This document shows, piece after piece, positions 5,015 to 32,050 of a DNA stretch of 32,629 nt. The number at the start of each line of letters is the position of its first letter. The first letter of the stretch is position 1. This DNA comes from Crocinitomicaceae bacterium (GTDB taxonomy: Bacteria > Bacteroidota > Bacteroidia > Flavobacteriales_D > Crocinitomicaceae). The notes under the pieces are model-generated. The model ran no database searches and was not told the DNA's origin. It worked only from the letters and a program-made list of their open reading frames with translations. The DNA lies in contig JAQWYK010000009.1 of the NCBI GenBank assembly GCA_029254025.1, positions 1-32,629 on the forward strand, read 5' to 3'. A program made the position numbers and the translations under genes.

Positions 5015-5340
5015 TGCGTTGTACAGTATATTTGGAAGCGAATATAAGCACTTCATAGTAGAATGCATTCGATAACATAAGATTTTATATTCGTTTGGCC
5101 GCCGATGAGAAAAGGTAAGTAACTTACATCTGATTTTCGTCAGTATTCGATTGCTTCCAAACACATTTTTTAACATCCTAGATTCTTTTTATATATTTGT
5201 GTAATAGAAAATAGTGAATATGTACAATTGGGTGACTCTTCAAGAATTTAAAAAATTATTGCTGAAACGCAATCCGGAATGAGTGTCCGAGACCTATCTC
5301 TGACAACCAGTTTTACATTTACTCATTAAAATTTCGAAAT
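5015..5340. other. Divergent intergenic region between tdh and hmgA
   Basis: 326 bp separate two genes read in opposite directions, so promoters for both should lie here. On the tdh side there is a -7-like site at 5039-5046. On the hmgA side I see no convincing TAnnTTTG element. No gene, repeat or RNA structure was recognised. Confidence 0.5.
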
Positions 5341-6498
5341 ATGCCCTTTTATCATAAAATGGGTGAGATTCCTCACAAAAGACACACAGTATTTCAGTCT
5401 GAAGAGGGAGCTTACTACTACGAAGAACTTTTTGGAACAGAAGGTTTTAGTAGCATGTCTTCGCTTCTCTATCATGTACATCGTCCAACAATGGTGAAAT
5501 CGGTTAGTGATCCAAAAGACATGACACCAGTTGCTGCAGTGGCAAAAAACATTAAGTCTCAAATGCTAAATGGATTTAATGTGCCAGCAGTTAATGACTT
5601 TTTGGAAAGTCGCAAGACAGTCTTGTTCAACAACGACTTAAACATAGTACTTGCAGCTCCCAAACAATCGTTGCGTTCCTATTTCTATAAAAATGCGGAT
5701 GCAGACGAAATGATATTCGTCCACAAAGGAAAAGGAACTTTGCGAACGATGCTAGGGAATCTCCCTTTTAGCTATGGTGACTATTTGATTATTCCAAGAG
5801 GAATAACCTACCAAATTGATTTTGATAGTGCAGACAATCGTTTATTTATTGTTGAATCATTTTCTCCAATATTAACACCGCGCACGTATCGCAATAAATT
5901 CGGACAATTACTAGAACATTCTCCATTTTGTGAGCGAGATATTCGTACACCTGAAACGTTAGAAACGCACAGGGAAAAAGGTGATTTCACGGTAAAAATC
6001 AAAAAAGAAAATGTATTACATGAATTAGTCTATGCATCTCATCCATTTGATGTAGTCGGCTATGACGGATATAATTTCCCATACGCTTTTTCTATACATG
6101 ATTTCGAACCTATAACAGGCCGTGTCCACATGCCACCGCCAATCCACCAGACGTTTGAAGCGCACAACTTCGTGGTATGTTCTTTCTGTCCTAGGTTATA
6201 CGACTATCATCCTAAAGCTATTCCAGCACCTTACAATCATAGTAACATTGATTCTGATGAAGTGTTGTATTACATCGATGGTGACTTCATGAGTAGAAAT
6301 CACGTGGACAAAGGATATATATCGTTGCATCCTGCGGGAATTCCTCACGGTCCACATCCTGGAGCAATGGAACGATCAATTGGTCAAAAAGAAACCTTAG
6401 AACTAGCTGTGATGGTGGATACGTTTAAACCATTACGATTAACACAAACTGCAGTAGATATTGCAGACAAAGATTATTTTATATCCTGGTTGGAATAA
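5341..6498 (+). CDS. hmgA: Homogentisate 1,2-dioxygenase
   Basis: Iron(II) enzyme that opens the homogentisate ring to give maleylacetoacetate in tyrosine and phenylalanine breakdown; cytoplasmic. The 385-aa protein begins MPFYHKMGEIPHKRHTVF, typical of the Bacteroidetes members of this family. By alignment from memory with the human enzyme (ligands His335, Glu341, His371), the iron ligands here are His300 (PYNHSN), Glu307 (DSDEVLYYIDG) and His336 (GIPHGPHPG); the segment HMPPPIHQTFEAHNF (263-277) is also conserved. Length is shorter than the roughly 430-445 aa of proteobacterial and animal enzymes, as usual for this lineage. The next gene, 34 nt downstream, makes the substrate, so the two form an operon. 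The following pathway steps (isomerase, fumarylacetoacetase) are not in the window. Confidence 0.93.
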   Translation: MPFYHKMGEIPHKRHTVFQSEEGAYYYEELFGTEGFSSMSSLLYHVHRPTMVKSVSDPKDMTPVAAVAKNIKSQMLNGFNVPAVNDFLESRKTVLFNNDLNIVLAAPKQSLRSYFYKNADADEMIFVHKGKGTLRTMLGNLPFSYGDYLIIPRGITYQIDFDSADNRLFIVESFSPILTPRTYRNKFGQLLEHSPFCERDIRTPETLETHREKGDFTVKIKKENVLHELVYASHPFDVVGYDGYNFPYAFSIHDFEPITGRVHMPPPIHQTFEAHNFVVCSFCPRLYDYHPKAIPAPYNHSNIDSDEVLYYIDGDFMSRNHVDKGYISLHPAGIPHGPHPGAMERSIGQKETLELAVMVDTFKPLRLTQTAVDIADKDYFISWLE

Positions 6499-6532
6499 AG
6501 AAACCAGATTACTCATTATTAAAGATTAAATT

Positions 6533-7693
6533 ATGGCAAAAGAAGTAAAGAGCGTTAATTATGGCCTCGAAAAAATATTTGAAGGAGCACAGGATTTTCT
6601 TCCTCTTTTAGGAACAGATTACATAGAATTTTATGTGGGTAACGCCAAGCAGGCCGCTCATTTCTATAAAACTGCATTCGGATTTCAATCGCATGCATAT
6701 GCTGGATTAGAAACAGGTGTCACAGATAGAGCTTCCTATGTATTGAAACAAGATAAAATTCGGTTAGTACTAACAACTGCATTAACCAGCGATTCACCTA
6801 TCGGAGAACATGTGAAAAAACATGGAGACGGTGTGAAAGTTGTTGCATTGTGGGTAGAAGATGCGAAAAGTGCTTGGGAGGAGACGACTAAACGTGGCGC
6901 CAAATCTTATATGGAACCAACTGTAGAAAAAGATGAGCACGGAGAAGTGGTTCGATCAGGAATTTATACCTACGGTGAAACTATTCACATGTTTGTGGAG
7001 CGCAAAAATTATACAGGAGCGTTTTTGCCAGGTTACAAGAATTGGGAATCCGATTACAATCCAACACCAACTGGACTTAAGTACATTGACCACATGGTAG
7101 GTAATGTAGGATGGGGTGAAATGAATACATGGGTGAAATGGTACGAAGATGTAATGGGATTTGAAAATTTCCTATCATTCGATGATAAACAAATTCATAC
7201 AGAATATTCTGCATTGATGTCTAAAGTAATGTCTAATGGTAATGGACGCGTAAAATTCCCAATCAACGAGCCCGCTGAAGGTAAAAAGAGATCTCAAATT
7301 GAAGAATATCTTGATTTTTATGAAGGACCAGGCGTTCAACATATAGCGGTTGCTACAGATAATATTCTACAAACAGTTGCAGAACTAAGAAATAGAGGAA
7401 TTGAGTTTTTATCTACTCCTCCTCAAATTTATTACGATGCCATTCCAGAGCGTTTAGGTCGCTTTGACCACAATATGAAGGAAGATATTGAAGCCATCAA
7501 AAAGCTAGGTATCATGGTGGATGCTGATGAGGAAGGTTACTTATTGCAAATCTTCACCAAACCAGTTGAAGATCGTCCTACTCTTTTCTTCGAAATCATC
7601 CAACGAATGGGGGCTCGAGGATTTGGTGCTGGTAACTTTAAAGCGTTGTTTGAGTCTATTGAACGAGAACAAGAAAAAAGAGGGACTTTATAA
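6533..7693 (+). CDS. hppD: 4-hydroxyphenylpyruvate dioxygenase
   Basis: Iron(II)-dependent enzyme that converts 4-hydroxyphenylpyruvate to homogentisate with oxygen and release of carbon dioxide. The 386-aa protein has the two vicinal-oxygen-chelate domains of the family: the N-terminal one from about 25 to 155 (TDYIEFYVGNAKQAAHFYK), and the catalytic one from about 180 to 360. The iron ligands are visible: His187 (YIDHMVGNV), His270 (GVQHIAVAT) and Glu354 (LFFEIIQRMG). The C-terminal GFGAGNFKALFESIE is the conserved gate helix. It is cotranscribed with hmgA just upstream and ends at a terminator, so this is a two-gene unit for the middle of tyrosine catabolism. Confidence is high because all ligands and the helix are present and full length. 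Confidence 0.95.
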   Translation: MAKEVKSVNYGLEKIFEGAQDFLPLLGTDYIEFYVGNAKQAAHFYKTAFGFQSHAYAGLETGVTDRASYVLKQDKIRLVLTTALTSDSPIGEHVKKHGDGVKVVALWVEDAKSAWEETTKRGAKSYMEPTVEKDEHGEVVRSGIYTYGETIHMFVERKNYTGAFLPGYKNWESDYNPTPTGLKYIDHMVGNVGWGEMNTWVKWYEDVMGFENFLSFDDKQIHTEYSALMSKVMSNGNGRVKFPINEPAEGKKRSQIEEYLDFYEGPGVQHIAVATDNILQTVAELRNRGIEFLSTPPQIYYDAIPERLGRFDHNMKEDIEAIKKLGIMVDADEEGYLLQIFTKPVEDRPTLFFEIIQRMGARGFGAGNFKALFESIEREQEKRGTL

Positions 7694-7720
7694 GTTCAGA
7701 GTTGAAAAATTGGAGTTTAA
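7693..7720. repeat. 7-bp-periodic intergenic repeat (AGTTNAA-like heptads)
   Basis: Directly after hppD four 7-mers run in phase: AGTTCAG, AGTTGAA, AAATTGG, AGTTTAA. They merge into the 5' arm of the terminator. Related tracts are seen at 7881-7901 and 13684-13711. Confidence 0.45.
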
Positions 7721-7754
7721 AAAGCGAGTTAACATAGTTTAGCTCGCTTTTTTT
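7719..7754 (+). terminator. Rho-independent terminator after hppD
   Basis: The stem AAAAAGCGAG / CTCGCTTTTT (7719-7728 with 7743-7752) has a 14-nt loop and ends in seven T. It closes the hmgA-hppD operon; with the A-run on the other side it could also act on the minus strand. Confidence 0.85.
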
Positions 7755-7906
7755 GTTGTTAATACTTTAGACTCTAGAATGGGACTAAGTTTCACGAGAA
7801 GGAACAAAATTCACAATTAAAAACAAGTGCCAATTAAGGTAACACTTCTCGCAGTACGAAGCTGAGCATTAAGAATTTTCAGTTCAGAGTACTAAACTCA
7901 AACTTA

Positions 7907-9901
7907 TCACACAATAATCCGATTTAGCTCTTTAGCAAATACACTCTGAATTTTCTGCAGCTGCATTTGCTCACGCAATAGACTTTCCATTTTGCTTTCG
8001 TCAAACTCTGCATGGTCCGGCTTCAGGCGTTCACGGATGTATTCGATTCGCTGCTTAATTTTAGAATTTTTAAACGTATATAAAGACTCATGCAAAGCTT
8101 GCGACAACCGCTGTAGTTCGTCGTTGGTGTAGATTTTAAAATCTTTTAACCAACTTGCACTAAGTTCATATTTATTGGTTAGAAAATCAGAGACTAATTG
8201 AACTATTTCTTGATTTTCATTTCGTAAAAAGTAGGTTGGTGAGTATAATATATCTTCTTCTAATCCTTTTTTACAAATTTCATAAATCTCTTGAAAAACT
8301 GGATTTGAAAATACAAGGTCATCCCGATCAATTTCATGTACCACAAGTTCAGCTAAACTCACATCAACGGTCATAGGAGGCTCACCTATTGGGGCCTGAT
8401 TTAATTCAATCGCACGAGAACCGTACAAAACGAGTATGCGAATTAAATCGAGTTCCTTTGCCTTATCCCCTTCATTCGGATCAATTGTTACCGACTGTTT
8501 AGCAGGTTGCTGAGGCATCTGAAAACTAGATAAATCTTCTCGTTGTTGCTCAGGAGACACATTTAGATGTTGACTGACCCGAATGCTTCGCTTGTTACGG
8601 CGAATTTTGTTCATTTCATTGAGCAAAGTTTGCTCGTCCAACTCAAACTGTTCGGAGGTCTCTTTTAAATACACTGAACGCGTTATATCATCAGGAATCA
8701 ACGCAATGGACTCCACAATATCTTTGATTAATCCAGCGCGTTTAATTGGATCGTTGTCGGAATCCTTTAAAAGAATGTCCGTTTTAAATCCGACAAAATC
8801 ACGTTGATTCTCTTCGATGTAACGCTTGACTTCATCAGAACCATGACGCTTTGAGAACGAATCTGGATCCTCTCCTTCTGGAAACAAAACCACTTTTACG
8901 TTCATTCCTTCTTCTAAAATCAAATCAATTCCCCGAAACGACGCACGAATTCCAGCGGCATCACCATCATATAAAATGGTGATATTGTTGGAATACCGCT
9001 TCATCAATTTAATTTGATCCTTAGTCAATGCGGTTCCGGACGATGCAACAACATTCTCCACTCCGGCTTGATGCATGCTAATCACATCTGTGTAGCCCTC
9101 TACCAAATAAGAGTTATCATACTTTATTATGCTAGATTTAGCAAAGTAAAGTCCGTATAAGATTTTACTCTTATTATAAATGATGCTTTCAGGAGAATTA
9201 AAATACTTAGCAACTTTCTTTCCTGATTGAAGTGTTCTACCCCCAAAACCAAGTACATTCCCAGAAATACTGTGTATAGGAAACATCACACGACCACTAA
9301 AGAAGTCAAAATGTCGATCGTCTTTCGTTCTCGAAAGACCAAGGGCTTCCAAATATTTTAACTTATACCCTTTCTTGAGCGCCGCATCCGTAAGTGAACC
9401 TTCGTTTTGCGGACAATAACCCAACTGAAAACGTTCTATGATTTCCGGTCGAAAACCACGTTCAATAAAATAGGATAATCCGATAGCCTTCCCTTCTTCA
9501 CCTTTATGCATGCGGTCCACAAAAAAATCCCTCGCATATTCATTGATAATCTGTAAGCTTTCTCGTTCGGTTATCTGTTCCTGCTCTTCTGGCGTTAATG
9601 GCCTTTCTTCCGGGATTTCAATATTGTAGCGGTTTGCCAACCATTTTAGTGCCTCTGGATAACTAAAATGTTCATGTTCCATAATAAATGAAACCACTGT
9701 ACCCCCCTTACCACTGGAAAAACATTTAAAAATTTGTTTAGCCGGACTAACCATGAACGAAGGCGACTTCTCATCCGTAAATGGACTCAACCCCTTTAGA
9801 TTTGAACCAGAACGTTTTAAGGCCACAAAATCTCCAATTACCTCCTCGATTCGGGCGGTATTCATAATGTCTTCAATAATATGTGGTGGTATCCTTGCCA
9901 T
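7907..9901 (-). CDS. dnaG: DNA primase
   Basis: Makes RNA primers for DNA replication at the fork. The 664-aa protein has an N-terminal CHC2-type domain (to about 100), the catalytic TOPRIM region with Glu268 (YLVEGYTDV) and Asp312/Asp314 (ILYDGDAAG), and a C-terminal helicase-binding region from about 430 onward. Odd point: the N-terminal zinc ligands, normally Cys-His-Cys-Cys, read Ser39 (GLSPF), Thr42 (PFTDE), Cys60 (FKCFS) and Ser63 (FSSGK), so only one ligand remains, although the fold motif KSPSFMVSP is kept. From memory, other Flavobacteria also lack these ligands. The gene lies 3 nt after the stop of a MORN-repeat lipoprotein gene, so the two are probably cotranscribed. Confidence 0.95.
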   Translation of the reverse strand: MARIPPHIIEDIMNTARIEEVIGDFVALKRSGSNLKGLSPFTDEKSPSFMVSPAKQIFKCFSSGKGGTVVSFIMEHEHFSYPEALKWLANRYNIEIPEERPLTPEEQEQITERESLQIINEYARDFFVDRMHKGEEGKAIGLSYFIERGFRPEIIERFQLGYCPQNEGSLTDAALKKGYKLKYLEALGLSRTKDDRHFDFFSGRVMFPIHSISGNVLGFGGRTLQSGKKVAKYFNSPESIIYNKSKILYGLYFAKSSIIKYDNSYLVEGYTDVISMHQAGVENVVASSGTALTKDQIKLMKRYSNNITILYDGDAAGIRASFRGIDLILEEGMNVKVVLFPEGEDPDSFSKRHGSDEVKRYIEENQRDFVGFKTDILLKDSDNDPIKRAGLIKDIVESIALIPDDITRSVYLKETSEQFELDEQTLLNEMNKIRRNKRSIRVSQHLNVSPEQQREDLSSFQMPQQPAKQSVTIDPNEGDKAKELDLIRILVLYGSRAIELNQAPIGEPPMTVDVSLAELVVHEIDRDDLVFSNPVFQEIYEICKKGLEEDILYSPTYFLRNENQEIVQLVSDFLTNKYELSASWLKDFKIYTNDELQRLSQALHESLYTFKNSKIKQRIEYIRERLKPDHAEFDESKMESLLREQMQLQKIQSVFAKELNRIIV

Positions 9902-9904
9902 AGC

Positions 9905-10351
9905 CTAATTGGTAGCTCCTGATTCCTTGGTTGATTGATCGTAATTGATGGTTTCTAGAAGCTCACCCGTTTCTGCATAAAATCTCCATTCACCTATCCT
10001 TTCATCCATTACGTATTCACCCACATAATTGGGTATTCCATTAGGATGGCGCACTACTATATGTCCGTCTTTTTTTCCTTTGGTATACACAGTAACCGAT
10101 AACTCTACTCCTTGGGGTGAATATAATTTCCAAATACCCATTCTATTTCCATTCGCGTCTTCTCGACCTTTCATCTTAATTTGTTTATGCCCCGGATAAT
10201 ATTCAATATATTGACCATCCTTACGCACAATTAATGGTCTAAATTCATCTTTTTGGTCGACTTCAACTGAAGCTGCATCTTCACACCCAACAAGAATTAG
10301 AAGTCCTAAAACCATCAAAACCGCACTATTTAATCGAAAATATCTGTTCAT
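9905..10351 (-). CDS. MORN-repeat (YwqK-like) lipoprotein
   Basis: Predicted lipoprotein of 148 aa. The start at 10351 gives a signal peptide with hydrophobic core VLMVLGLLIL and lipobox LVGC, lipidated at Cys23. The open frame reaches 21 codons further upstream, but only the chosen start gives a proper signal. The mature part has short beta repeats such as NRMGIWKLYSPQG, KDGHIVVRHPNG and ERIGEWRFYAETG, which match the MORN_2/YwqK pattern also seen in the gene at 3069-3938. It ends 3 nt before dnaG, an unexpected operon partner. Position at the inner face of the outer membrane or on the surface is inferred; function is unknown. An antitoxin role, as in some database labels, is not supported here. 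Confidence 0.78.
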   Translation of the reverse strand: MNRYFRLNSAVLMVLGLLILVGCEDAASVEVDQKDEFRPLIVRKDGQYIEYYPGHKQIKMKGREDANGNRMGIWKLYSPQGVELSVTVYTKGKKDGHIVVRHPNGIPNYVGEYVMDERIGEWRFYAETGELLETINYDQSTKESGATN

Positions 10352-19259: not shown

Positions 19260-21124
19260 TTCATAATTAAATTAGCATCAAGAATTCTGCGTTCTTTAAT
19301 CGTATCAGATACTTCTCCTTTCAAATATTTCTCAATCATTAAACTTGCTATTGGGGCAGCCCAGGTACCACCAAAACCAGCATTCTCAATGAACACAGAA
19401 ATGGCTATTTTTGGCTTTTCGAATGGGGCATATGCGATAAATATAGAATGATCTTCTCCATGCGGGTTCTGCGCTGTACCCGTTTTTCCAGCTACAATTA
19501 TATCTTCTATAATTGCTCGTCTCGCCGTTCCGCCAGGTTCATTAACGGCTCTGCGCATCCCCTCTTGGACTGCAGAATAATGAATGCTGTCAACTAATGT
19601 AGTATGTTTGATAGAAAATTCAGATCGAAATCCATTCTCCCCTATATTTTTAACAAAGTGAGGTGTATAATACCATCCACTATTAGCCATTATCACGGCA
19701 ATATTCGCCATTTGAAGAGGGGTCAGTTTGACTTCTCCCTGACCAATGCTAATAGACCTTATCGTAGACCACGCCCAGCGATGCTCCCCATACCAATTGT
19801 TATAAAAAGCAACATTTGGAATAACACCTGGACGGATTCCGAAAATATCCGTTTCCATTTTAATGCCCAATCCAAAACTATGCATATAGTTTTCCCACAC
19901 ATTCAACCCGACCTGTGCATCTCGAAAAATACTCGGTTGTTTTCCCTGCTGAATAATTCTTCTCACACAAAAATAAAAATATGGATTACACGAATATTGA
20001 AGGGCATCTGAAACTGAATTCGCTTGAGGATGCGAATGACAACCTACCAATCCCTTAGTACAAGGGAAGGAAGTATTTTCAGTTATAACCCCTTCTTGCA
20101 TTCCAACTAAGGATTGAACTAACTTTAAAATTGATCCAGGTGGGTACTCTGCTTGAATTCCTCGGTTAAACAGTGGCAAAAGTTTGTTGGTATCAAGTAA
20201 TGGATAATTCACACGAATATTTCGTGAACCAACAAGTTGGTTTGGATCAAAAGATGGTGAACTTACCATAGCTAATATTTCACCTGTAGCTGGTTCAATG
20301 GCAACTATACAGCCTAATTTATTCTTCATAAGCTCCTCACCATAAGCTTGAAGCTCTATATCCAAACCTAACTGCAACGATGGCCCTTGGAGTGCAAATG
20401 TATCCAGCTTTCCATCAGCGAAATTGTCCACCGCCTTTCCGCGAGCAGATGTTATAAGAAACTTTGTTCCCTTAAGACCACGTAATTCTTTCTCATACTC
20501 CCTTTCAAGTCCAGCTCGACCAATAAAATCTCCCATCTTATAGAAATATCGATCTTTCTCTAACTCGTGAGGACGAATCTCGTTTAAGTAGCCAAAAATA
20601 TGCCCCCCATTGGGATAAGGATAATCGCGCATACTCACTGTTTCCTCATAAAAACCCGGGAAATAAAATAATTCAGAAGCGATTCCAGCAATTTCTTCGG
20701 CAGTGAGTTCGCTCATGAACGCGTACGGCATATAACTTCGGTAATCATTCACAACCGTATCATTCCCAGTCTTTTTACTACGGGTTTTTCTGTCTAAACT
20801 AACGCGTATTTCCTCAAAACGTTCACCAATTTCGTGATACTCTAGACCCAATAATTTGGCCAAGGCAGCCGTATCCAAATCCTTAATTATATCCTCAACG
20901 AACATTAAATTATAGTACGTTTTATTGCCAACCACCTTATTCCCATAACGATCTAACAATATTCCGCGAGGTGGTTTTACATCAATTCGTTTTTGAGAAA
21001 CTTCAGCAGCACGGGTCATCCAGCGATCATCGATAACCTGCATATAAAAAAGACGCACTGAATAGATAATACTCACTAAAATGAACAGCACAAGAAATAC
21101 GATACGTCTTCCTTCGAGATTCAT
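19256..21124 (-). CDS. mrdA: Penicillin-binding protein 2 (peptidoglycan transpeptidase)
   Basis: Class B penicillin-binding protein that crosslinks new glycan strands during cell elongation, with RodA. The 622 aa consist of an N-terminal membrane anchor (8-27, IVFLVLFILVSIIYSVRLF), a pedestal domain (about 40-250) and the transpeptidase with nucleophile Ser331 in SILK (331-334), the SCN motif at 378-380, and KTG at 547-549 (VAGKTGTAQNP). The YPPGS context and the GQGEVKLTPLQMA segment are typical of PBP2. The first motif has Ile-Leu instead of the usual Thr-Val, a conservative change. Its ends overlap the mreD and rodA frames by 4 nt on each side, showing translational coupling. Confidence 0.95.
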   Translation of the reverse strand: MNLEGRRIVFLVLFILVSIIYSVRLFYMQVIDDRWMTRAAEVSQKRIDVKPPRGILLDRYGNKVVGNKTYYNLMFVEDIIKDLDTAALAKLLGLEYHEIGERFEEIRVSLDRKTRSKKTGNDTVVNDYRSYMPYAFMSELTAEEIAGIASELFYFPGFYEETVSMRDYPYPNGGHIFGYLNEIRPHELEKDRYFYKMGDFIGRAGLEREYEKELRGLKGTKFLITSARGKAVDNFADGKLDTFALQGPSLQLGLDIELQAYGEELMKNKLGCIVAIEPATGEILAMVSSPSFDPNQLVGSRNIRVNYPLLDTNKLLPLFNRGIQAEYPPGSILKLVQSLVGMQEGVITENTSFPCTKGLVGCHSHPQANSVSDALQYSCNPYFYFCVRRIIQQGKQPSIFRDAQVGLNVWENYMHSFGLGIKMETDIFGIRPGVIPNVAFYNNWYGEHRWAWSTIRSISIGQGEVKLTPLQMANIAVIMANSGWYYTPHFVKNIGENGFRSEFSIKHTTLVDSIHYSAVQEGMRRAVNEPGGTARRAIIEDIIVAGKTGTAQNPHGEDHSIFIAYAPFEKPKIAISVFIENAGFGGTWAAPIASLMIEKYLKGEVSDTIKERRILDANLIMK

Positions 21125-21636
21125 GACATGCGTTGATTTTTGAAGAAAATGATTTGAATCAGTACAAAAATTAGTAACGTAAGTGCTCCACTTAAAAAGG
21201 TTTTCTGAAAAATGTATAGCACATCGGATAACCTAAAATACTCGAGAAAGAAAAACCACACATGATGAATCAGCACCATTAGACTAGATACCGAAATAAA
21301 CCATTTATAACCAAGGTCTACAACACTCGGTTGGCGGAAACTCTCGTACCCATCTCTAGGTGAAAATAACTTGAATAATTCTGGGCGAAAATAAGCCGCG
21401 ATTACAGCTGCACTTGCATGGAGTCCAAATGTATTCATAAAAAAATCAACCGAAACTCCTGTTACAAAAGCGATAATCATTAATGCAATTGCGCTCATAT
21501 CAAAAGGCAGCAATAATATGAATAATGGGTATATCATGGGGTGAATTCCAAAACCGAAATCTAGCTGACCAACTATTAATCCTTGCGCTAGCACAAAAAG
21601 AAAAAACCGAATAATATGTATGTATATGCCAATCAT
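21121..21636 (-). CDS. mreD: Rod shape-determining protein MreD
   Basis: Membrane protein of the elongasome that links MreC with MreB and the PBP2-RodA pair. The 171 aa hold about five hydrophobic helices (7-24, 32-48, 51-70, 113-133 and 146-167). Sequence is weakly conserved across the family, so the assignment rests on size, topology, VTGVSVDFFMNTFGLHASA (a common MreD loop pattern) and position between mreC and mrdA. It starts on the base following the mreC stop and overlaps mrdA by 4 nt. Confidence 0.9.
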   Translation of the reverse strand: MIGIYIHIIRFFLFVLAQGLIVGQLDFGFGIHPMIYPLFILLLPFDMSAIALMIIAFVTGVSVDFFMNTFGLHASAAVIAAYFRPELFKLFSPRDGYESFRQPSVVDLGYKWFISVSSLMVLIHHVWFFFLEYFRLSDVLYIFQKTFLSGALTLLIFVLIQIIFFKNQRMS

Positions 21637-25371: not shown

Positions 25372-26589
25372 TTATTTAACCACGCTCAAGGTAAGCGTTT
25401 CAAGTCCTGAGGTTAAGATCCGAACATAGTAGACACCTTCTTGCCAATCCGAAGTGTTCAACTGCAATACAGACACTCCATCAAAGTGTGTGGCGAAAAC
25501 AGTTCTTCCCATGACATCTAGCACCAAGATTTCTGCACTGGATACGCGTGAAAAAGAAACCTGTAATTCATCCTTGACCGGGTTAGGATAAGCATCAACC
25601 TGAAGGCTGTACTCTTCCTCTAATCCAACATTGCAGCCAGACACACAAGAAGTGACCCCTGGTTCAATCGTCCCCCAGTTCACATCAAAATGAGTAGCCG
25701 TTGGTGTATTGTCACAAATATCCAATGTACCTTTTACAAAACCAAAGTTGGTCGTTGATTCACCCAAGCAAAACTCACCTGTACCCTTTAGCGTATCGCT
25801 ATTGGTAAAATCACGCAGGACATGAAACACTCCATTATTCTCAACAATTGCATCAAAAGTAGATAGGTTTCCAGAAGCAAAATCACGTCCAACGGACACA
25901 TCCCTTCCTTGGGCAACAACTACTTGATTTAAATTGAGAAAATCATTTTCCACGAAGAAAGAACCTGTTCCAGTGATGTTCAAAATCCCATCATTACCCA
26001 CATCGAAAGAGCTGACATTTCCAGCGGAAACATTATATGTCCCTAAATTATAGAGCGAGTCAGACACGACAAATCCTGTATTCATAACTGTTCCCTCATT
26101 TAAAAAGTCACCATTAAAGAGCGTGCCTTCATTCATGAATATCCCTTGATTATAAATACTGTCTGTGCCATTCAGTAATCCATGATTCATAAATGTTGAA
26201 TTCATGCTCACGTATAATGCAGTATCAAGCACTAAATTCGCATGATTATGACCAACAGCACCTGTTGTAAACGCTAAATTAGTTAGTGTAGTCTGACCGT
26301 GATTAGAAAATGTCGTGGATGTTCCGTCAAACAAAATACTTATTCCACTAGTACTCTCACCAAAAGAACCCGTTGCATGAACAGTAATTGAACCACCGGA
26401 ATTAACCAACCAATCAACATCCATCGTGATAGCGTGATAAATATTGATGTCATCAGTAGTCGATGGGATGCACGAACAGTCCCACACAAAAGGATTGCTT
26501 GCAGTTCCGTTCATTACTGAGCTAATGGTTTGTTGACCAAACACAATGCTGAAAAGGAGTAAAAAGAAGAGTGTAGTAGTCGTTCTCAT
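25372..26589 (-). CDS. Secreted N-x-G ladder (beta-solenoid-like) protein with T9SS type A sorting domain
   Basis: Function unknown. The 405-aa protein has a signal peptide (1-18, TTLFFLLLFSIVFG), a beta-rich body and a type A sorting domain from about 330 (VDAYPNPVKDEL ... GRTVF ... EGVYYVRILT ... LSVVK). The body contains a ladder of N-x-G steps at Asn135, 147, 153, 164, 170 and 181, spaced alternately about 11-12 and 6 residues. This makes a repeat of about 17 residues and suggests a right-handed parallel beta-helix. Two pairs of nearby cysteines (Cys38/Cys40, Cys315/Cys319) may form disulphides. It would be exported by Sec, moved out by T9SS and placed on the surface or in the medium. Related Bacteroidetes proteins are usually called hypothetical. 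It converges on nothing: the next gene lies divergent beyond the riboswitch. Confidence 0.82.
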   Translation of the reverse strand: MRTTTTLFFLLLFSIVFGQQTISSVMNGTASNPFVWDCSCIPSTTDDINIYHAITMDVDWLVNSGGSITVHATGSFGESTSGISILFDGTSTTFSNHGQTTLTNLAFTTGAVGHNHANLVLDTALYVSMNSTFMNHGLLNGTDSIYNQGIFMNEGTLFNGDFLNEGTVMNTGFVVSDSLYNLGTYNVSAGNVSSFDVGNDGILNITGTGSFFVENDFLNLNQVVVAQGRDVSVGRDFASGNLSTFDAIVENNGVFHVLRDFTNSDTLKGTGEFCLGESTTNFGFVKGTLDICDNTPTATHFDVNWGTIEPGVTSCVSGCNVGLEEEYSLQVDAYPNPVKDELQVSFSRVSSAEILVLDVMGRTVFATHFDGVSVLQLNTSDWQEGVYYVRILTSGLETLTLSVVK

Positions 26590-26720: not shown

Positions 26721-26728
26721 TACATTTG
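26721..26728 (+). promoter_or_regulatory. -7 promoter element of the riboswitch transcript
   Basis: TACATTTG is an exact TAnnTTTG match and ends 5 nt before the riboswitch, so the RNA would begin about at its first helix. No TTG box was found at -33. Confidence 0.5.
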
Positions 26729-26820
26729 CATCGTCTCTAAGGGGTGTCTGCCAGCTGGTGGACTGAGATTATACCCATTGAACCGGATCAGGTTAGTACC
26801 TGCGGCGGGAAGATGACTTT
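26729..26820 (+). ncRNA. TPP (THI-element) riboswitch
   Basis: The conserved core is clearly legible: GGGGTG (26741-26746), CTGAGATT (26763-26770), ACCC (26773-26776), GAACCGGATCAGGTTAGTACCTGC (24 nt from 26780) and CGGGAAGATG near the 3' end. The outer P1 helix pairs GTCTCT (26733-26738) with AGATGAC (26811-26817, one bulge). It binds thiamine pyrophosphate and normally switches off the gene downstream. The receptor ATG lies 68 nt after P1, so control is probably at translation or by a terminator form; no obvious T-tract hairpin is seen between. Confidence 0.96.
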
Positions 26821-26884
26821 TTAATGCTAGTGTTGATTCTAATTATTTATTAATTCCAAGAATTAGCCCCTTATTCTTGTTAAA

Positions 26885-29380
26885 ATGTTTAAAGACATGA
26901 AAACAAGAAATGTTTTAAAAGCCTTGGCAGTGGTATTTATACTGTCGTCTAGTGCGCAAGCACAATTCTCCATTTCAGGAACAGTGAAAGATACAGAAGG
27001 TGAACTCCTCACTGGTGTTATGGTGGTCCTCAACGACAAATCGCGGGGAACAAATACCCGGATTAACGGGACATACACTTTATCCAATCTTGCTCCAGGA
27101 AACTACACGGTCGTAGCTCGATTCTTCGGTTACGAGCAACAATCAAAATCCATTGAGCTTATTGAGGGAGATGAAGTACTCGACTTCTCCCTGAAACTAT
27201 CTTTCTTCATGCAAGAGGGAATAGAAGTGCGTGGAATTCGCGCTACCGAAAAAACGCCAACGACCTACACCAACCTAGATCGCGAAGAAATCGAACGACA
27301 AAACTTTGGTCAGGACTTACCGTTCTTACTACAATCTACACCATCCACTGTAGTTACATCTGACGCAGGTGCTGGAGTTGGATATACCGGTGTAAGTATT
27401 CGAGGAGTTGATCCAACACGAACGAACGTCACCATAAATGGAATTCCCATCAACGACTCCGAATCACAGGGTGTGTTTTGGGTGAACATGCCTGACTTCA
27501 CCTCCTCCATTGAGGACATGCAAGTTCAACGAGGTGTAGGAACCTCTTCGAATGGTGGAGCAGCATTTGGAGCAAGTATTAATATCAATTCTAACCAAAT
27601 CAACAAAGAAGCCTATGGTGAACTCGACAACTCATACGGAACATTCAATACGTGGCGCAATACTGTAAAAGCTGGAACAGGATTGATCAATGATAAATTT
27701 ACTTTGGACGCCCGGCTTTCCAGAATTTCATCGGATGGATTTGTAGACCGTGGAACATCTAATTTGCGCTCCTACTATTTATCAGGAGCTTGGTTGGGCA
27801 AAAAGTCTTCACTGCGCGCTATTATTTTTGGTGGACACGAAGTCACCTATCAAGCTTGGTATGGCACCCCTGAAAGTCGCATTAAAAATGACGAACAAGG
27901 AATGCTAGATTACGCCGCACGAAATGGATTAACACCAGAACAAACTGATAACCTACTTAGCTCCGGAAGAACTTATAACTTTTACGAATACGAAAACGAA
28001 GTGGATAACTATAAGCAAGATCATTATCAATTGCACTTCGCGCATCAGTTCAATAAAAAGTGGAATGCCAATGTAGCTGCTCACTACACTTATGGACGCG
28101 GATATTATGAACAATTCCGAGAAAATGATCGTTTTTCCACGTATGATTATGACCCAATTGCAGTAAATGGAGACACATTGAATCGTATGGATTTAATTCG
28201 AAGAAGATGGTTAGATAATCACTTTGGAGGAGGAGTGTTCAATATTAACTACACAAACTATAACGGACTAGAGCTCACTTTAGGCGGTGGTGCTAACGCA
28301 TACGATGGTGATCACTTCGGAGAAGTAATCTGGGCGCAATATCTTCCTGATAGCGATATTCGCGATCGCTATTATGACAACAATGCCTTTAAAATTGATG
28401 CAAATAGCTACCTCAAAGGAACATATGAATGGAGCAACTTAACATTCTTCGCGGATGCCCAATTGCGACACATTGATTACACTTTCTTAGGAATCGATGA
28501 CGTGAGCGGTATTCTGACAGAAGTAGAACAAAACGTAAAGTATAACTTCTTTAATCCGAAAGCTGGACTTTCGTACAAATTAAAAGAGAATCAAACGCTT
28601 TACGCCTCTTATGCAGTAGCTAACAGAGAACCCGTTCGGAGAGATTTCCGTGAAAGTTCGCCGGAAAGTAGACCACAACATGAAACATTAAACAACCTAG
28701 AAGCGGGCTACAGATGGCACGGTAAAAAAGGATTTGTGAATGCGAACTTTTATTTCATGGATTATGACAATCAACTCGTTCTTACTGGTCAAATTAATGA
28801 TGTAGGGGGATATACTCGTACCAATGTAAAAGACAGCTACCGCGCTGGAATCGAGCTAGAAGGAGGGTATAAAATCCTAGATAATATAGGGATAACAGGA
28901 AACTTAACGCTGAGTCAAAATAAAATTGTTGAATTCACAGAATACATGGATGCGTATGATGTCAATTTCGACTATTTAGGTCAAGTGGAAACAGTTCATC
29001 AAAATACAGATTTGGCTTTTTCACCCAACATCATTGCAGGTGCAACAATTAATTTCGAGCCCATTAAAAACCTTCGCCTAAACTGGATGTTCAAACATGT
29101 GGGGGCTCAGTTTTTGGATAATACTTCAAATGAGACTCGCATGTTAGATAGCTACTTCATATCTCATCTAAATATAGCGTATACCATCAAAGACAAACTC
29201 TTCAAAGAAACTACGATAGGATTGCGTATAAATAACCTTTTCAACGGATACTTCAATAGTGAGTTTGAGAATAATGGATATACTTGGGGTTATATCTACG
29301 ACAATAAGAGGATAGATGAGAACTTCTATTACCCTCAAGCAGGGGCACATTTTCTGTTACGATTAACTATAAAACTATAG
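26885..29380 (+). CDS. TonB-dependent outer-membrane receptor under TPP control, predicted thiamine or precursor uptake
   Basis: Outer-membrane beta-barrel that takes up a substrate with energy from TonB. The 831 aa comprise a signal peptide (to about 27; a second ATG at 26897 gives the cleaner MKTRNVLKAL start), a carboxypeptidase-regulatory-like domain (about 28-105, ISGTVKDTEGELLTGVMV), a plug (about 120-236, GVSIRGVDPTRTNVTINGIPI and SSNGGAAFGASININ) and a barrel to the final strand ending LRLTIKL. Function is inferred from the TPP riboswitch upstream: when thiamine pyrophosphate is scarce, the receptor is made. Such riboswitch-linked receptors were predicted as thiamine transporters in Bacteroidetes. 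No inner-membrane transporter (PnuT-like) or thiamine kinase gene is next to it. A terminator follows. Confidence 0.88.
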   Translation: MFKDMKTRNVLKALAVVFILSSSAQAQFSISGTVKDTEGELLTGVMVVLNDKSRGTNTRINGTYTLSNLAPGNYTVVARFFGYEQQSKSIELIEGDEVLDFSLKLSFFMQEGIEVRGIRATEKTPTTYTNLDREEIERQNFGQDLPFLLQSTPSTVVTSDAGAGVGYTGVSIRGVDPTRTNVTINGIPINDSESQGVFWVNMPDFTSSIEDMQVQRGVGTSSNGGAAFGASININSNQINKEAYGELDNSYGTFNTWRNTVKAGTGLINDKFTLDARLSRISSDGFVDRGTSNLRSYYLSGAWLGKKSSLRAIIFGGHEVTYQAWYGTPESRIKNDEQGMLDYAARNGLTPEQTDNLLSSGRTYNFYEYENEVDNYKQDHYQLHFAHQFNKKWNANVAAHYTYGRGYYEQFRENDRFSTYDYDPIAVNGDTLNRMDLIRRRWLDNHFGGGVFNINYTNYNGLELTLGGGANAYDGDHFGEVIWAQYLPDSDIRDRYYDNNAFKIDANSYLKGTYEWSNLTFFADAQLRHIDYTFLGIDDVSGILTEVEQNVKYNFFNPKAGLSYKLKENQTLYASYAVANREPVRRDFRESSPESRPQHETLNNLEAGYRWHGKKGFVNANFYFMDYDNQLVLTGQINDVGGYTRTNVKDSYRAGIELEGGYKILDNIGITGNLTLSQNKIVEFTEYMDAYDVNFDYLGQVETVHQNTDLAFSPNIIAGATINFEPIKNLRLNWMFKHVGAQFLDNTSNETRMLDSYFISHLNIAYTIKDKLFKETTIGLRINNLFNGYFNSEFENNGYTWGYIYDNKRIDENFYYPQAGAHFLLRLTIKL

Positions 29381-29396
29381 ATTATTCAATTGTTTT

Positions 29397-29424
29397 AAGG
29401 CTCCGGATATTTCTGGAGCCTTTT
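29397..29424 (+). terminator. Terminator after the TPP-controlled receptor
   Basis: The stem AAGGCTCCGG / CTGGAGCCTT (29397-29406 with 29413-29422, one G-T pair) has a 6-nt loop and continues into TTTT. It starts 16 nt after the stop codon. Confidence 0.85.
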
Positions 29425-29605: not shown

Positions 29606-32050
29606 ATGAAAATTTTAGCAACTATTCCTTTGGTGCTTTTCGCTCTGCTAACTGTTGCTCAAATCGAAGGAACAATAGTGGGCGAAGTGCGAGATGCCAA
29701 TACCGACGAACCCTTAGCATTTGCGAAGGTATTCATCGAAGGTATGCAATTGGGTGCCTCAACGGAATTAGACGGAACGTATCGCTTAGAGGTGCCTACT
29801 GGAACATATACTATCAAAGTAACCTATCAAGGGTATAACGATGTAAAAAAATACAACATTGCCGTGAACTCGGGAAGCCCCCAGGTTCTGAATTTTCGTA
29901 TGTCAAGCATGACCACCGAATTAGAAGAAGTTCAAATTGTCTATGACAAAAATGCCATGGTGAAAACAACGGATATGGTGACGCCTTTATCCGTTCAAAA
30001 GCTTACTGCTGAGGAAATAAAATCCAATCCTGGAGGTAATTTTGATGTTTCAAAAGTGGTACAAACCCTTCCAGGAGTTGGTGGATCCGCTGGCGGGGCA
30101 CAACGCAACGACATCACCATTCGAGGGGGAGCCCCGAACGAAAATGTTTACTACCTCGATGGAATAGAAATACCTGTATTGAATCACTTTCAAACACAAG
30201 GCTCCTCTGGCGGTGCCCAAGGAATTCTAAATGTTTCGTTTATTGAAGAATTGAAACTTACCTCTTCCGCTTTTGATGCCCGCTATGACAATGCACTTGC
30301 CTCGACATTCGTCATCACCCAAAGACAAGGAAATTCTGAAAAAATCTCTGGAAATATTCGGAGTAGTCTAACGGAATCTGCTCTTACGCTAGAAGGCCCA
30401 TTAGGCAAGAATAAGAAAACAGACTTCTTGGCTTCATCGCGTCTTTCGTATTTGGACCTTTTGTTTACCTTGATTGATTTACCGATTCGCCCAAATTTCT
30501 CTGACTATCAACTGAAGGTCTCGCACAAAATCGATGATAAATCAAGTCTTACCTTTATAGGGTTAGGAGCAATAGACCGCTTTAATTTTGCCGAAACACG
30601 TGATGAAACGCTTGAAACAGCTTTCTTGAGAAGATCGCTGCCTTTTATATCCCAATGGACATACACCACAGGGGTTGCCTATAAAAAACGATTTGAAGGC
30701 GGGTTTTACAACATTGCTGTCAGCCGGAATATGTTTAATAATCAATTAGATCAATTTGAGGATGCGCAGAACGGCAATGAAAATTTCCGCAACTTGAAAT
30801 TACGTTCTCAAGAAATTGAGAATAAATTCCGCTTCGATTATAACAAATATCAAAATGGGTGGAAATATTCTTATGGAGTGATGGGGCAATACGTAAAATA
30901 TAATACCAGCATCTTCAATCGCATTTCAGCAGGAGTTTTCGATACTAGCGGTGTGCTAATTATGCCCCCAATTGTTATCAATGCCAACAGCGCGATTGAT
31001 TTCTTCCGGTATGGAGCGTTTGGACAACTATCGAAGAATGTATTGAAAGACCGTTTATTGGTGTCGTTCGGTTTGAGAACTGATATGAATACCTTCACAA
31101 CTGGAGGAAACAATCCACTGGAAACTGCTTCTCCTCGTTTGTCCTTTGCATATAGCTTAAGTAAGAAATGGGACTTAACAGCATCCGTTGGACGCTATTT
31201 TAAACTCCCACCATATACCTCTCTCGGGTTCCGTGATGAAAATGATGTTTTAGTTAATATCGATGCCGAATATATCCAATCGAACCATTATGTTTTGGGC
31301 ACACAATTTCTTCCAAATGACGGCCTTCGGCTTACGTTAGAAGGGTTTTTCAAGACATATGCAAACTACCCAGTTTCCTTGGTTAATGGAATCTCATTAG
31401 CCAATCAAGGTCAAGAGTTTGGAGCAATTGGGAACGAGCCAATAACAAGTATCGGTGATGGAGTTACCTATGGCGCAGAAATATTCATTCAACAAAAGTT
31501 AGTCAAGAATATCTTTTACGTGGTAAGTTACACCTATGTACGTAGTTTATTTTCGGGATTAGTCAATGACCTCATCCCCTCTGCATGGGATGCTCAACAT
31601 CTTTTATCTGGGACATTAGGCTGGAAATTTGGAAAGAAAAAAGACTGGCAATTAGGATTGAAATACCGTTTTGCAGGTGGCGTTCCTTACACCCCTTGGG
31701 ATCTTCAGGCTTCGCAAATGAACTATGCGGTGCTAGGTAATGGAGTGTTGGATTTTGACGACGTGAATGGCGAACGTTTATCGAATTTTCAGCAACTCGA
31801 TTTTAGACTCGATAAAATCGTAAACCTAAAAAAGCTAAGTTTTACCTTTTACATCGATATTCAAAACTTACTAGGGTTTGAAAATCAGTCACCAGATTAC
31901 TATACATTTCAACGAAAACCAGATGATAGCGGATTTGAGACGACAGATGGGCAGCCTTTAAAACCAGATGGATCCAATGCTGTTCCAGTAATCCTGCCAA
32001 ATTCGTCAGCATTGGTTACACCAACATTGGGTATTATTTTTGAATTTTAG
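29606..32050 (+). CDS. TonB-dependent outer-membrane receptor, substrate unknown
   Basis: Second outer-membrane receptor, 814 aa. A signal peptide (1-19, MKILATIPLVLFALLTVA), a carboxypeptidase-regulatory-like domain (about 22-100, IVGEVRDANTDEPLAFAKV and PTGTYTIKVTYQGY) and a plug (about 120-245, TLPGVGGSAGGAQRNDI, IRGGAPNENVYYLDGIEIP and SSAFDARYDNALAS) precede the barrel, which ends in GIIFEF with the aromatic last residue needed for assembly. A terminator separates it from the riboswitch-controlled receptor, and no riboswitch or similar control element is seen, so it is not obviously a thiamine transporter. No SusD-like gene follows, so it is not a SusCD polysaccharide pair. The cargo could be a siderophore, vitamin, peptide or sugar. 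Confidence 0.88.
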   Translation: MKILATIPLVLFALLTVAQIEGTIVGEVRDANTDEPLAFAKVFIEGMQLGASTELDGTYRLEVPTGTYTIKVTYQGYNDVKKYNIAVNSGSPQVLNFRMSSMTTELEEVQIVYDKNAMVKTTDMVTPLSVQKLTAEEIKSNPGGNFDVSKVVQTLPGVGGSAGGAQRNDITIRGGAPNENVYYLDGIEIPVLNHFQTQGSSGGAQGILNVSFIEELKLTSSAFDARYDNALASTFVITQRQGNSEKISGNIRSSLTESALTLEGPLGKNKKTDFLASSRLSYLDLLFTLIDLPIRPNFSDYQLKVSHKIDDKSSLTFIGLGAIDRFNFAETRDETLETAFLRRSLPFISQWTYTTGVAYKKRFEGGFYNIAVSRNMFNNQLDQFEDAQNGNENFRNLKLRSQEIENKFRFDYNKYQNGWKYSYGVMGQYVKYNTSIFNRISAGVFDTSGVLIMPPIVINANSAIDFFRYGAFGQLSKNVLKDRLLVSFGLRTDMNTFTTGGNNPLETASPRLSFAYSLSKKWDLTASVGRYFKLPPYTSLGFRDENDVLVNIDAEYIQSNHYVLGTQFLPNDGLRLTLEGFFKTYANYPVSLVNGISLANQGQEFGAIGNEPITSIGDGVTYGAEIFIQQKLVKNIFYVVSYTYVRSLFSGLVNDLIPSAWDAQHLLSGTLGWKFGKKKDWQLGLKYRFAGGVPYTPWDLQASQMNYAVLGNGVLDFDDVNGERLSNFQQLDFRLDKIVNLKKLSFTFYIDIQNLLGFENQSPDYYTFQRKPDDSGFETTDGQPLKPDGSNAVPVILPNSSALVTPTLGIIFEF

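Follow-up and report, generated by a model that had tools for sequence, protein, structure and literature searches.

A stand-alone TPP riboswitch and TonB-dependent receptor in a Crocinitomicaceae bacterium, and a probable thiamine salvage route with a NadR-like kinase

The riboswitch and receptor locus

The stretch of DNA analyzed here (the window) comprises 32,629 nucleotides of contig JAQWYK010000009.1 from the genome of a Crocinitomicaceae bacterium (assembly GCA_029254025.1) and carries a thiamine pyrophosphate (TPP) riboswitch followed by a single gene for a TonB-dependent receptor. The gene content of the genome points to a probable thiamine auxotroph, and we consider it quite probable that the unit is its stand-alone gene for thiamine uptake, operating together with a permease, a kinase and ThiL that are encoded on contig 8 of the same assembly. 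The coordinates of all features are collected in Table 1.

The covariance model RF00059 matches the aptamer from end to end, with a score of 54.4 bits that reaches the gathering score of 54.3 (E-value 3.5e-8 in the window and 7.0e-10 in the genome), in agreement with the complete THI element described in a first-pass annotation of this DNA. In a genome-wide search, this element is the single RF00059 match in 2.7 Mb. The score is borderline because the Rfam alignment renders most P1 pairs non-standard; read by eye, P1 consists of six pairs, one of them G-U, between 26731-26736 and 26811-26816 (CGUCU 26732-26736 with AGAUG 26811-26815, plus U26731-A26816). A chance match was considered as the origin of the element and rejected, given the genome E-value of 7e-10 and the presence of the element in relatives as well, including a genome of the same genus (G012, 57.1 bits). 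Among 60 genomes sampled from the family Crocinitomicaceae, 57 contain a TPP match at an E-value of 0.001 or better, and 52 contain one over the cut-off. TPP binding by the element and its effect on expression are predictions from these matches.

The -7 promoter consensus of Bacteroidota is TAnnTTTG. The octamer TACATTTG fits this consensus, and its last base sits one base before the aptamer match, so that the promoter box placed by the first-pass annotation at the edge of the element is upheld; no -33 TTG was seen when the sequence upstream of the box was read by eye. Counting from 40 bases upstream of the element to 8 bases past its start, the motif occurs in 95 of 136 distinct elements, compared with 2.8% of shuffled segments.

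The receptor open reading frame (ORF) spans 26885-29380, and its Pfam matches to the Plug domain and the TonB barrel exceed the cut-off. An in-frame ATG at 26885 would give a protein of 831 amino acids, but translation probably starts at ATG 26897 (MKTR...), since the relatives, including those that lack the upstream ATG, begin at the MKTR methionine. The description of the unit as a single receptor gene with its own terminator likewise holds, with an intrinsic-terminator-like site close behind the gene, although a scan of the region yields two such sites against 1.9 expected by chance. By its domains and the TPP elements before its relatives, the receptor is assigned to the OMthi/omr1 type, which includes the OMthi receptor of Bacteroides thetaiotaomicron (BT2390). 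The first-pass annotation also took the sequence to show active uptake, which overstates the case: TonB-dependent transport is a prediction.

The association of riboswitch and receptor is conserved. In all 80 named relatives, which are the best 80 of 572 found, a TPP element, located with model R1, precedes the receptor gene, the weakest of the best matches having an E-value of 2e-4; the element is cut by the contig end at one locus (L112), and at six others the mechanically called receptor ORF extends upstream into it. The receptor of Crocinitomicaceae bacterium DAH.14 is 99% identical to that of the window over the 412 residues present, and further near relatives in this set come from Fluviicola, Brumimicrobium and Lishizhenia. 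Within the family sample, receptor orthologues behind TPP elements are found mostly in genomes negative for ThiC; G020 has both.

A few loci depart from the simple arrangement. In Marivirga (L128), tandem full-length TPP matches (9661-9755 and 9826-9922) precede the receptor gene and a third (8315-8409) precedes a PnuC gene. At seven loci, mostly from Pedobacter (L151, L166, L167, L168, L170, L171 and L172), two weak TPP matches lie 81-128 bases apart upstream of the receptor; they look less like two elements than like the halves of a single one, separated by a long insertion. In G002 (L034, G002:C294:7000-19000, positions 5044-8576), a leader nearly identical to that of the window, including the MKTRNVL start, stands before a different TonB receptor with 30% identity to the window receptor, and a gene for an NMT1/THI5-like protein then follows. 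Either a gene exchange took place behind the riboswitch, or the receptor is a paralogue serving another vitamer.

Around the unit, a divergent gene whose product has a Por secretion tail domain lies upstream (25372-26589), and the next gene downstream, past the terminator-like site, encodes a second TonB receptor (29606-32050).

Table 1. Features of the receptor locus and of the contig-8 permease gene (window coordinates unless a contig is named)
Feature	Position	Strand	Remarks
-7 promoter box TACATTTG	26721-26728	+	fits TAnnTTTG; sequence reading
TPP riboswitch aptamer (RF00059)	26730-26827	+	covariance-model match end to end
Aptamer 5' strand UAAGGGGU	26738-26745	+	complement of 26866-26873; proposed to pair with it, against the aptamer fold, when TPP is absent
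GGGG of the aptamer	26741-26744	+	
Helix CUAAUU / AAUUAG	26839-26844 / 26861-26866	+	downstream of the aptamer
Hairpin CAAGAA / UUCUUG with CCCC loop	26857-26879	+	CCCC at 26867-26870
Start-codon hairpin	outer 26874-26881 / 26902-26909; inner 26885-26889 / 26894-26898	+	inner stem pairs AU of AUG
TonB-dependent receptor gene, OMthi/omr1 type	26897-29380	+	827 amino acids (probable start); Pfam Plug, TonB barrel, CarbopepD_reg_2
Intrinsic-terminator-like site	29397-29422	+	behind receptor gene; 11-pair stem, 6 GC, T-rich tail
PnuC/PnuT-family permease gene	contig 8, 44471-45001		PF04973, E-value 5.5e-47

A permease and a NadR-like kinase on contig 8

A Pfam scan of nine window proteins (between 16984 and 32050, other than that of the ORF at 21121-21636) identified no thiamine gene other than the receptor. 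The absence of a linked PnuT-like permease or thiamine pyrophosphokinase (TPK) gene, as claimed at first pass, thus stands for the scanned neighborhood but does not extend to the genome, in which contig 8 carries a PnuC-family permease gene with a 166-residue AAA_28 kinase encoded immediately behind it. A genome search for pnuT, thiN and thiamine synthesis genes found this permease gene and ThiL (contig 8, 93444-94439); it gave no match to ThiC or ThiE/TenI, no PF04263 match for TPK anywhere in the genome (G000), and no ThiK (TIGR02721). ThiK is over its cut-off in none of the 60 family genomes, with one weak match in G008.

These absences bear on the nature of the imported compound. TPP control alone cannot distinguish between vitamers, and the receptor might import a thiamine precursor or breakdown product, namely a pyrimidine or thiazole that the cell would then complete; the leader shared with the different receptor and NMT1/THI5-like gene of G002 is compatible with such a role. 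The genome, however, lacks a ThiC match and any ThiE/TenI match (YjbQ, ThiD, ThiM and ThiG were not searched for), so that the two halves would not be joinable by ThiE, and in relatives the receptor orthologues follow PnuC and the kinase. PMC5613172 names YjbQ as an alternative to ThiE. Of the first-pass claim of uptake of thiamine or a pyrimidine/thiazole precursor, the thiamine part is the most likely, and we regard precursor import as very unlikely.

We infer the following route for thiamine. The receptor would use TonB energy to bring intact thiamine, or the phosphates of thiamine, into the periplasm, and the riboswitch, sensing TPP, would lower the amount of receptor made. The PnuT-type permease of contig 8 would pass thiamine across the inner membrane, the adjacent AAA_28 kinase would phosphorylate and trap it, most likely as thiamine monophosphate (TMP), and ThiL would convert TMP to TPP. 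A kinase of the NadR fold would be expected to add one phosphate and thereby supply TMP to ThiL.

That the substrate of the contig-8 permease is thiamine rather than nicotinamide riboside is suggested by the gene context in relatives, by the correlation with ThiC and by the clade to which this PnuC belongs. In 12 of the 60 family genomes, PnuC lies just upstream of the riboswitch and receptor on the same strand. Eleven of the family genomes (G001, G004, G020, G026, G037, G040, G050, G051, G053, G054 and G059) have the order PnuC, AAA_28 kinase, TPP element and receptor on one strand; G018, a TPK genome, has PnuC, TPP element and receptor with no AAA_28 gene between them, and in G044 PnuC and the kinase precede a TPP element that lies at a contig end, so that any receptor gene would fall outside the contig. 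Within the stretches covered at the 80 named loci, the kinase is present at 30, PnuC at 30 and both at 27. A TPP element precedes PnuC itself at L128 and L146, the latter having a PF01910 thiamine-binding protein gene between the two. PnuC is present in 34 of the 38 ThiC-negative family genomes compared with one of the 22 ThiC-positive ones; of the four ThiC-negative genomes without it (G012, G016, G031 and G056), three are 79-84% complete and G031 is 98% complete. In a quick tree with many unresolved forks, the window genome's PnuC clusters with riboswitch-linked PnuCs (SH-aLRT 97), apart from PnuC encoded beside full-length NadR.

G031 has no match for a TPP riboswitch, ThiC, PnuC or TPK and no ThiL over the cut-off; it has one TMP-TENI match over its cut-off. 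In G055, a weak TPP match (38.9 bits) directly precedes a PnuC gene on contig C23, and a PnuC remnant with two in-frame stops (G055:C78:106560-107235) lies beside an intact AAA_28 kinase. In the window genome, a second TonB receptor (L060, 1153-3537) lies upstream of the PnuC-kinase pair; the genome's only TPP riboswitch is elsewhere.

The AAA_28 protein is probably the missing thiamine kinase, because a profile of this kinase (match threshold 1e-8) and TPK exclude each other across genomes. In a second sample of 120 genomes, which overlaps the family set and by inference represents the order Flavobacteriales, the kinase profile matches in 91 genomes, TPK in four, both in none and PnuC in 95. 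Ninety of the 95 PnuC-bearing genomes have the kinase, and all four TPK genomes have PnuC without a kinase-profile match; in G100 the kinase is present and PnuC absent. In the family sample, the AAA_28 gene adjoins PnuC in 28 of 35 PnuC genomes (G055 being counted, although its kinase-side PnuC is the remnant and its intact PnuC lies elsewhere), and TPK is found in none of these 28 compared with six of the other seven. Outside the family, the kinase is sometimes away from PnuC (for example in G061, G062 and G068). Replacement between the two enzymes seems to have occurred more than once, since a single genus (g22) includes both a TPK genome (G127) and eleven genomes with the kinase. At L173, a true TPK is encoded beside PnuC and the kinase is absent. 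A fusion of the AAA_28 kinase with a GNAT acetyltransferase domain occurs in G013 (L071, 5254-6204).

Matches to a TPK-like profile at 10 of the 80 named loci, including four where the kinase is present (L126, L155, L167 and L170), were examined as a possible break of this exclusion and rejected. The profile had been built from only two plus-strand TPK proteins; PF04263 has no match at L126, L155, L167, L170 or L151 in a check that left out L166, L171, L172 and L175, and TIGR01378 has none at L126, L155 or L167. The TPK-like proteins without PF04263 are encoded a few kilobases downstream of the receptor (L155, 13843-14487; L167, 13367-13924; also L126, L170 and L151), begin with MSSHHIV...QEPAL in the two sequences read, and are possibly decayed or repurposed TPK.

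An AlphaFold2 model of the kinase (pLDDT 95.4) has the P-loop kinase fold of the NadR ribosylnicotinamide kinase domain (PDB 1lw7, 8x7f and 6gye), which is the nearest solved fold (TM 0.85 to the kinase domain of 8x7f), followed by thymidylate kinases, and the sequence-profile match to NadR has an E-value of about 1e-20. Unlike NadR, the protein stands alone, covers only positions 164-319 of TIGR01526 and lacks the nicotinamide mononucleotide (NMN) adenylyltransferase domain; it is tied to thiamine genes and has the consensus PWExDPLREN in place of the DGLR or DGFR of NadR chains.

Several observations weigh against a thiamine route through this pair. The NCBIfam equivalog TIGR01528, over its cut-off, names the permease a nicotinamide riboside transporter, and the best NCBIfam match of the kinase is NadR (TIGR01526), at 67 bits against a cut-off of 341. 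Both fit the alternative of an ordinary nicotinamide riboside system, PnuC with an RNK kinase, unrelated to the receptor, in which case thiamine would enter by an unknown inner-membrane carrier, with TMP or TPP imported ready-made for ThiL or for direct use; that the pair and the receptor are unlinked, with the sole genomic TPP element not at the pair, favors it too. The alternative is at odds with the way in which PnuC tracks ThiC loss and the kinase tracks TPK absence, with the positions that both genes take in relatives, next to TPP elements or behind them, and with the separate clade of the PnuCs found beside full-length NadR, and we consider it unlikely. Six TPK genomes of the family keep ThiL too, and the presence of ThiL is therefore no proof of a TMP-forming kinase. 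Shared descent among the genomes makes the p-values (Fisher 3e-11 for PnuC and ThiC, 4e-6 for TPK and the PnuC-adjacent kinase) too strong; the four TPK genomes of the order sample represent four genera. The exclusion holds for the kinase profile and not for Pfam AAA_28: strong AAA_28 matches away from PnuC occur in G019, G021, G023 and G041, and in G019, a TPK genome, the unlinked AAA_28 protein (123.5 bits) has no kinase-profile match at 1e-8. Neither PnuC nor the kinase is matched in G012 (84% complete), although it belongs to the genus of the window genome; G021 (59% complete) has a PnuC fragment at a contig end, no TPK and its only full AAA_28 match elsewhere; and G071 (81% complete) has PnuC with neither TPK nor a kinase-profile match. 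Taking both sides together, we still hold it likely that the NadR-like AAA_28 protein is an unrecognized thiamine kinase in a PnuT-AAA_28-ThiL route.

Leader hairpins and the mode of control

Between the aptamer and the receptor gene, the leader contains hairpins that are candidates for the expression platform. They were compared in an unselected set, 78 of the 80 named loci (L153 and L163, with leaders under 20 bases, were left out), and in 45 leaders selected by a CCCC-containing pattern, in which the presence of CCCC carries no evidential weight; all leader tests ignore shared descent. Among the unselected leaders, 66 of 78 have a hairpin of at least five pairs with CCC[CU] in the loop, compared with a mean of 16.1 and a maximum of 25 in 30 shuffles, and CCCC itself occurs in 65 compared with 23 in shuffles. 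The loop is complementary to the GGGG of the aptamer, and the stem sequence differs among Crocinitomicaceae, Algoriphagus, Pontibacter and Pedobacter. In the selected set, 91.4% of the cells of this hairpin pair, and one pair is changed on both sides, which is not above shuffles.

Leader complementarity is concentrated on the aptamer 5' strand, with a mean of 6.87 against 6.13 (standard deviation 0.08) for shuffles across 121 elements, compared with 5.4-6.0 for other aptamer segments; pairing of this strand with the leader has a mean predicted probability of 0.88 in 44 selected leaders. The helix of the CUAAUU/AAUUAG type reaches the score threshold in 39 of the 45 selected leaders, with 13.5 expected from shuffles, and its pairs vary (GCUAAUU/AAUUAGC, GUUAAUU/AAUUAAC, GCUAAUU/AAUUGGC).

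The start-codon hairpin has a mean z of -2.55 in the 45 selected leaders, compared with -0.10 for 131 other ORF starts. Its inner stem scores 4.39 in an alignment-free test of 38 distinct spacers, against 3.05 (standard deviation 0.20) for shuffles, none of 300 of which scored as high; in its outer stem, no pairs are changed on both sides. The pairing probability of the AUG is mildly above that of control starts (0.66 in the 45 leaders versus 0.54 in the 131 controls), and an enclosing pair over 0.5 is present at the AUG in 41 of 45 leaders versus 86 of 131 controls. At L050, L102 and L103, folding of the segment in isolation favors the CCCC hairpin.

Together, the CCCC hairpin and the start hairpin may work the switch. 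In the TPP-free state, the CCCCU loop would pair with the AGGGG strand of the aptamer, a strand that the aptamer would reclaim when TPP is present. Nested folding, to which the proposed CCCC-GGGG docking is inaccessible as a pseudoknot, counts against this scheme in that it retains the start hairpin whichever of the two states is assumed. The start hairpin is not supported as a simple TPP switch, its mean predicted probability in 44 leaders being 0.89 with P2 enforced and 0.96 with P2 free, with the AUG unpaired at 0.32 and 0.31, respectively. Several biosynthesis-type elements of the family follow the same logic in other letters, with aptamer ACUUUAGG against CCUAAAGU, and, as read by eye, UCAUUCC against GGAAUGA at the start codon.

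That TPP represses the unit is an assumption based on how thiamine control is known to work. The CCCC hairpin might instead be an intrinsic terminator with the aptamer strand as antiterminator, and 23 of the 66 CCCC hairpins are indeed followed by a T-rich stretch (at least 5 T in 8). Such a stretch is lacking after the other 43 and, by eye, after that of the window, whose stem is moreover A-U-rich, and the OMthi mRNA of B. thetaiotaomicron is reported to change minimally with thiamine (PMC5613172). For these reasons we favor control at the level of translation and judge termination rather unlikely as the general mechanism; in the lineages with a T-rich tail, termination may apply.

Relation to known systems and significance

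The receptor-riboswitch unit is of the known OMthi type with a split locus. Like OMthi (BT2390) and omr1, it has a TPP element before a single TonB receptor gene and a permease gene elsewhere in the genome. The novelty seen at first pass in its standing alone is not sustained: according to PMC5613172, BT2390 of B. thetaiotaomicron already lies apart from pnuT-tnr3, and splitting of the operon mostly leaves the riboswitch in place. PMC10881298 reports two Flavobacteriales clusters and two SAR86 clusters in which omr1 has a riboswitch nearby. What B. thetaiotaomicron has in addition is the biosynthesis operon and riboswitches at three operons (PMC5613172), unlike the window genome, a likely auxotroph with one riboswitch. 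In the same study, the transcripts of both OMthi and pnuT differ minimally with thiamine, and a thiamine response must therefore be judged on protein as well as mRNA.

PnuT reportedly works by facilitated diffusion, and tnr3 of Bacteroides is, we take it, a thiamine pyrophosphokinase. The contig-8 pair resembles the PnuT and tnr3 genes (PMC5613172) in that a PnuC-family permease gene is directly followed by a kinase gene; it differs in that the kinase is AAA_28 rather than TPK and that no riboswitch is found at its locus.

What is new comes from the relatives: a platform hairpin that they conserve, and a protein that is probably a non-orthologous thiamine kinase. Among the papers listed in searches of an open-licence library, none was on a NadR-like thiamine kinase or a CCCC-loop TPP platform. 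The combined proposal is that most PnuC-bearing Flavobacteriales use the kinase in a PnuT-AAA_28-ThiL route and that the CCCC loop docks on the GGGG of the aptamer without TPP and thereby controls, with no Shine-Dalgarno sequence involved, how accessible the start codon is; as a whole we advance it tentatively, as possible rather than probable.

According to PMC10881298, most bacterioplankton are unable to make thiamine de novo, and some Bacteroidota clusters are without described B1 synthesis or transport systems; how TPP riboswitches function in Bacteroidetes is called uncertain in PMC5613172. The leader hairpins render that function testable, and should the AAA_28 protein prove to be a thiamine kinase, it would supply the missing enzyme of thiamine salvage in 90 of the 95 PnuC-bearing genomes examined in the order, an enzyme that is now named after NAD metabolism.

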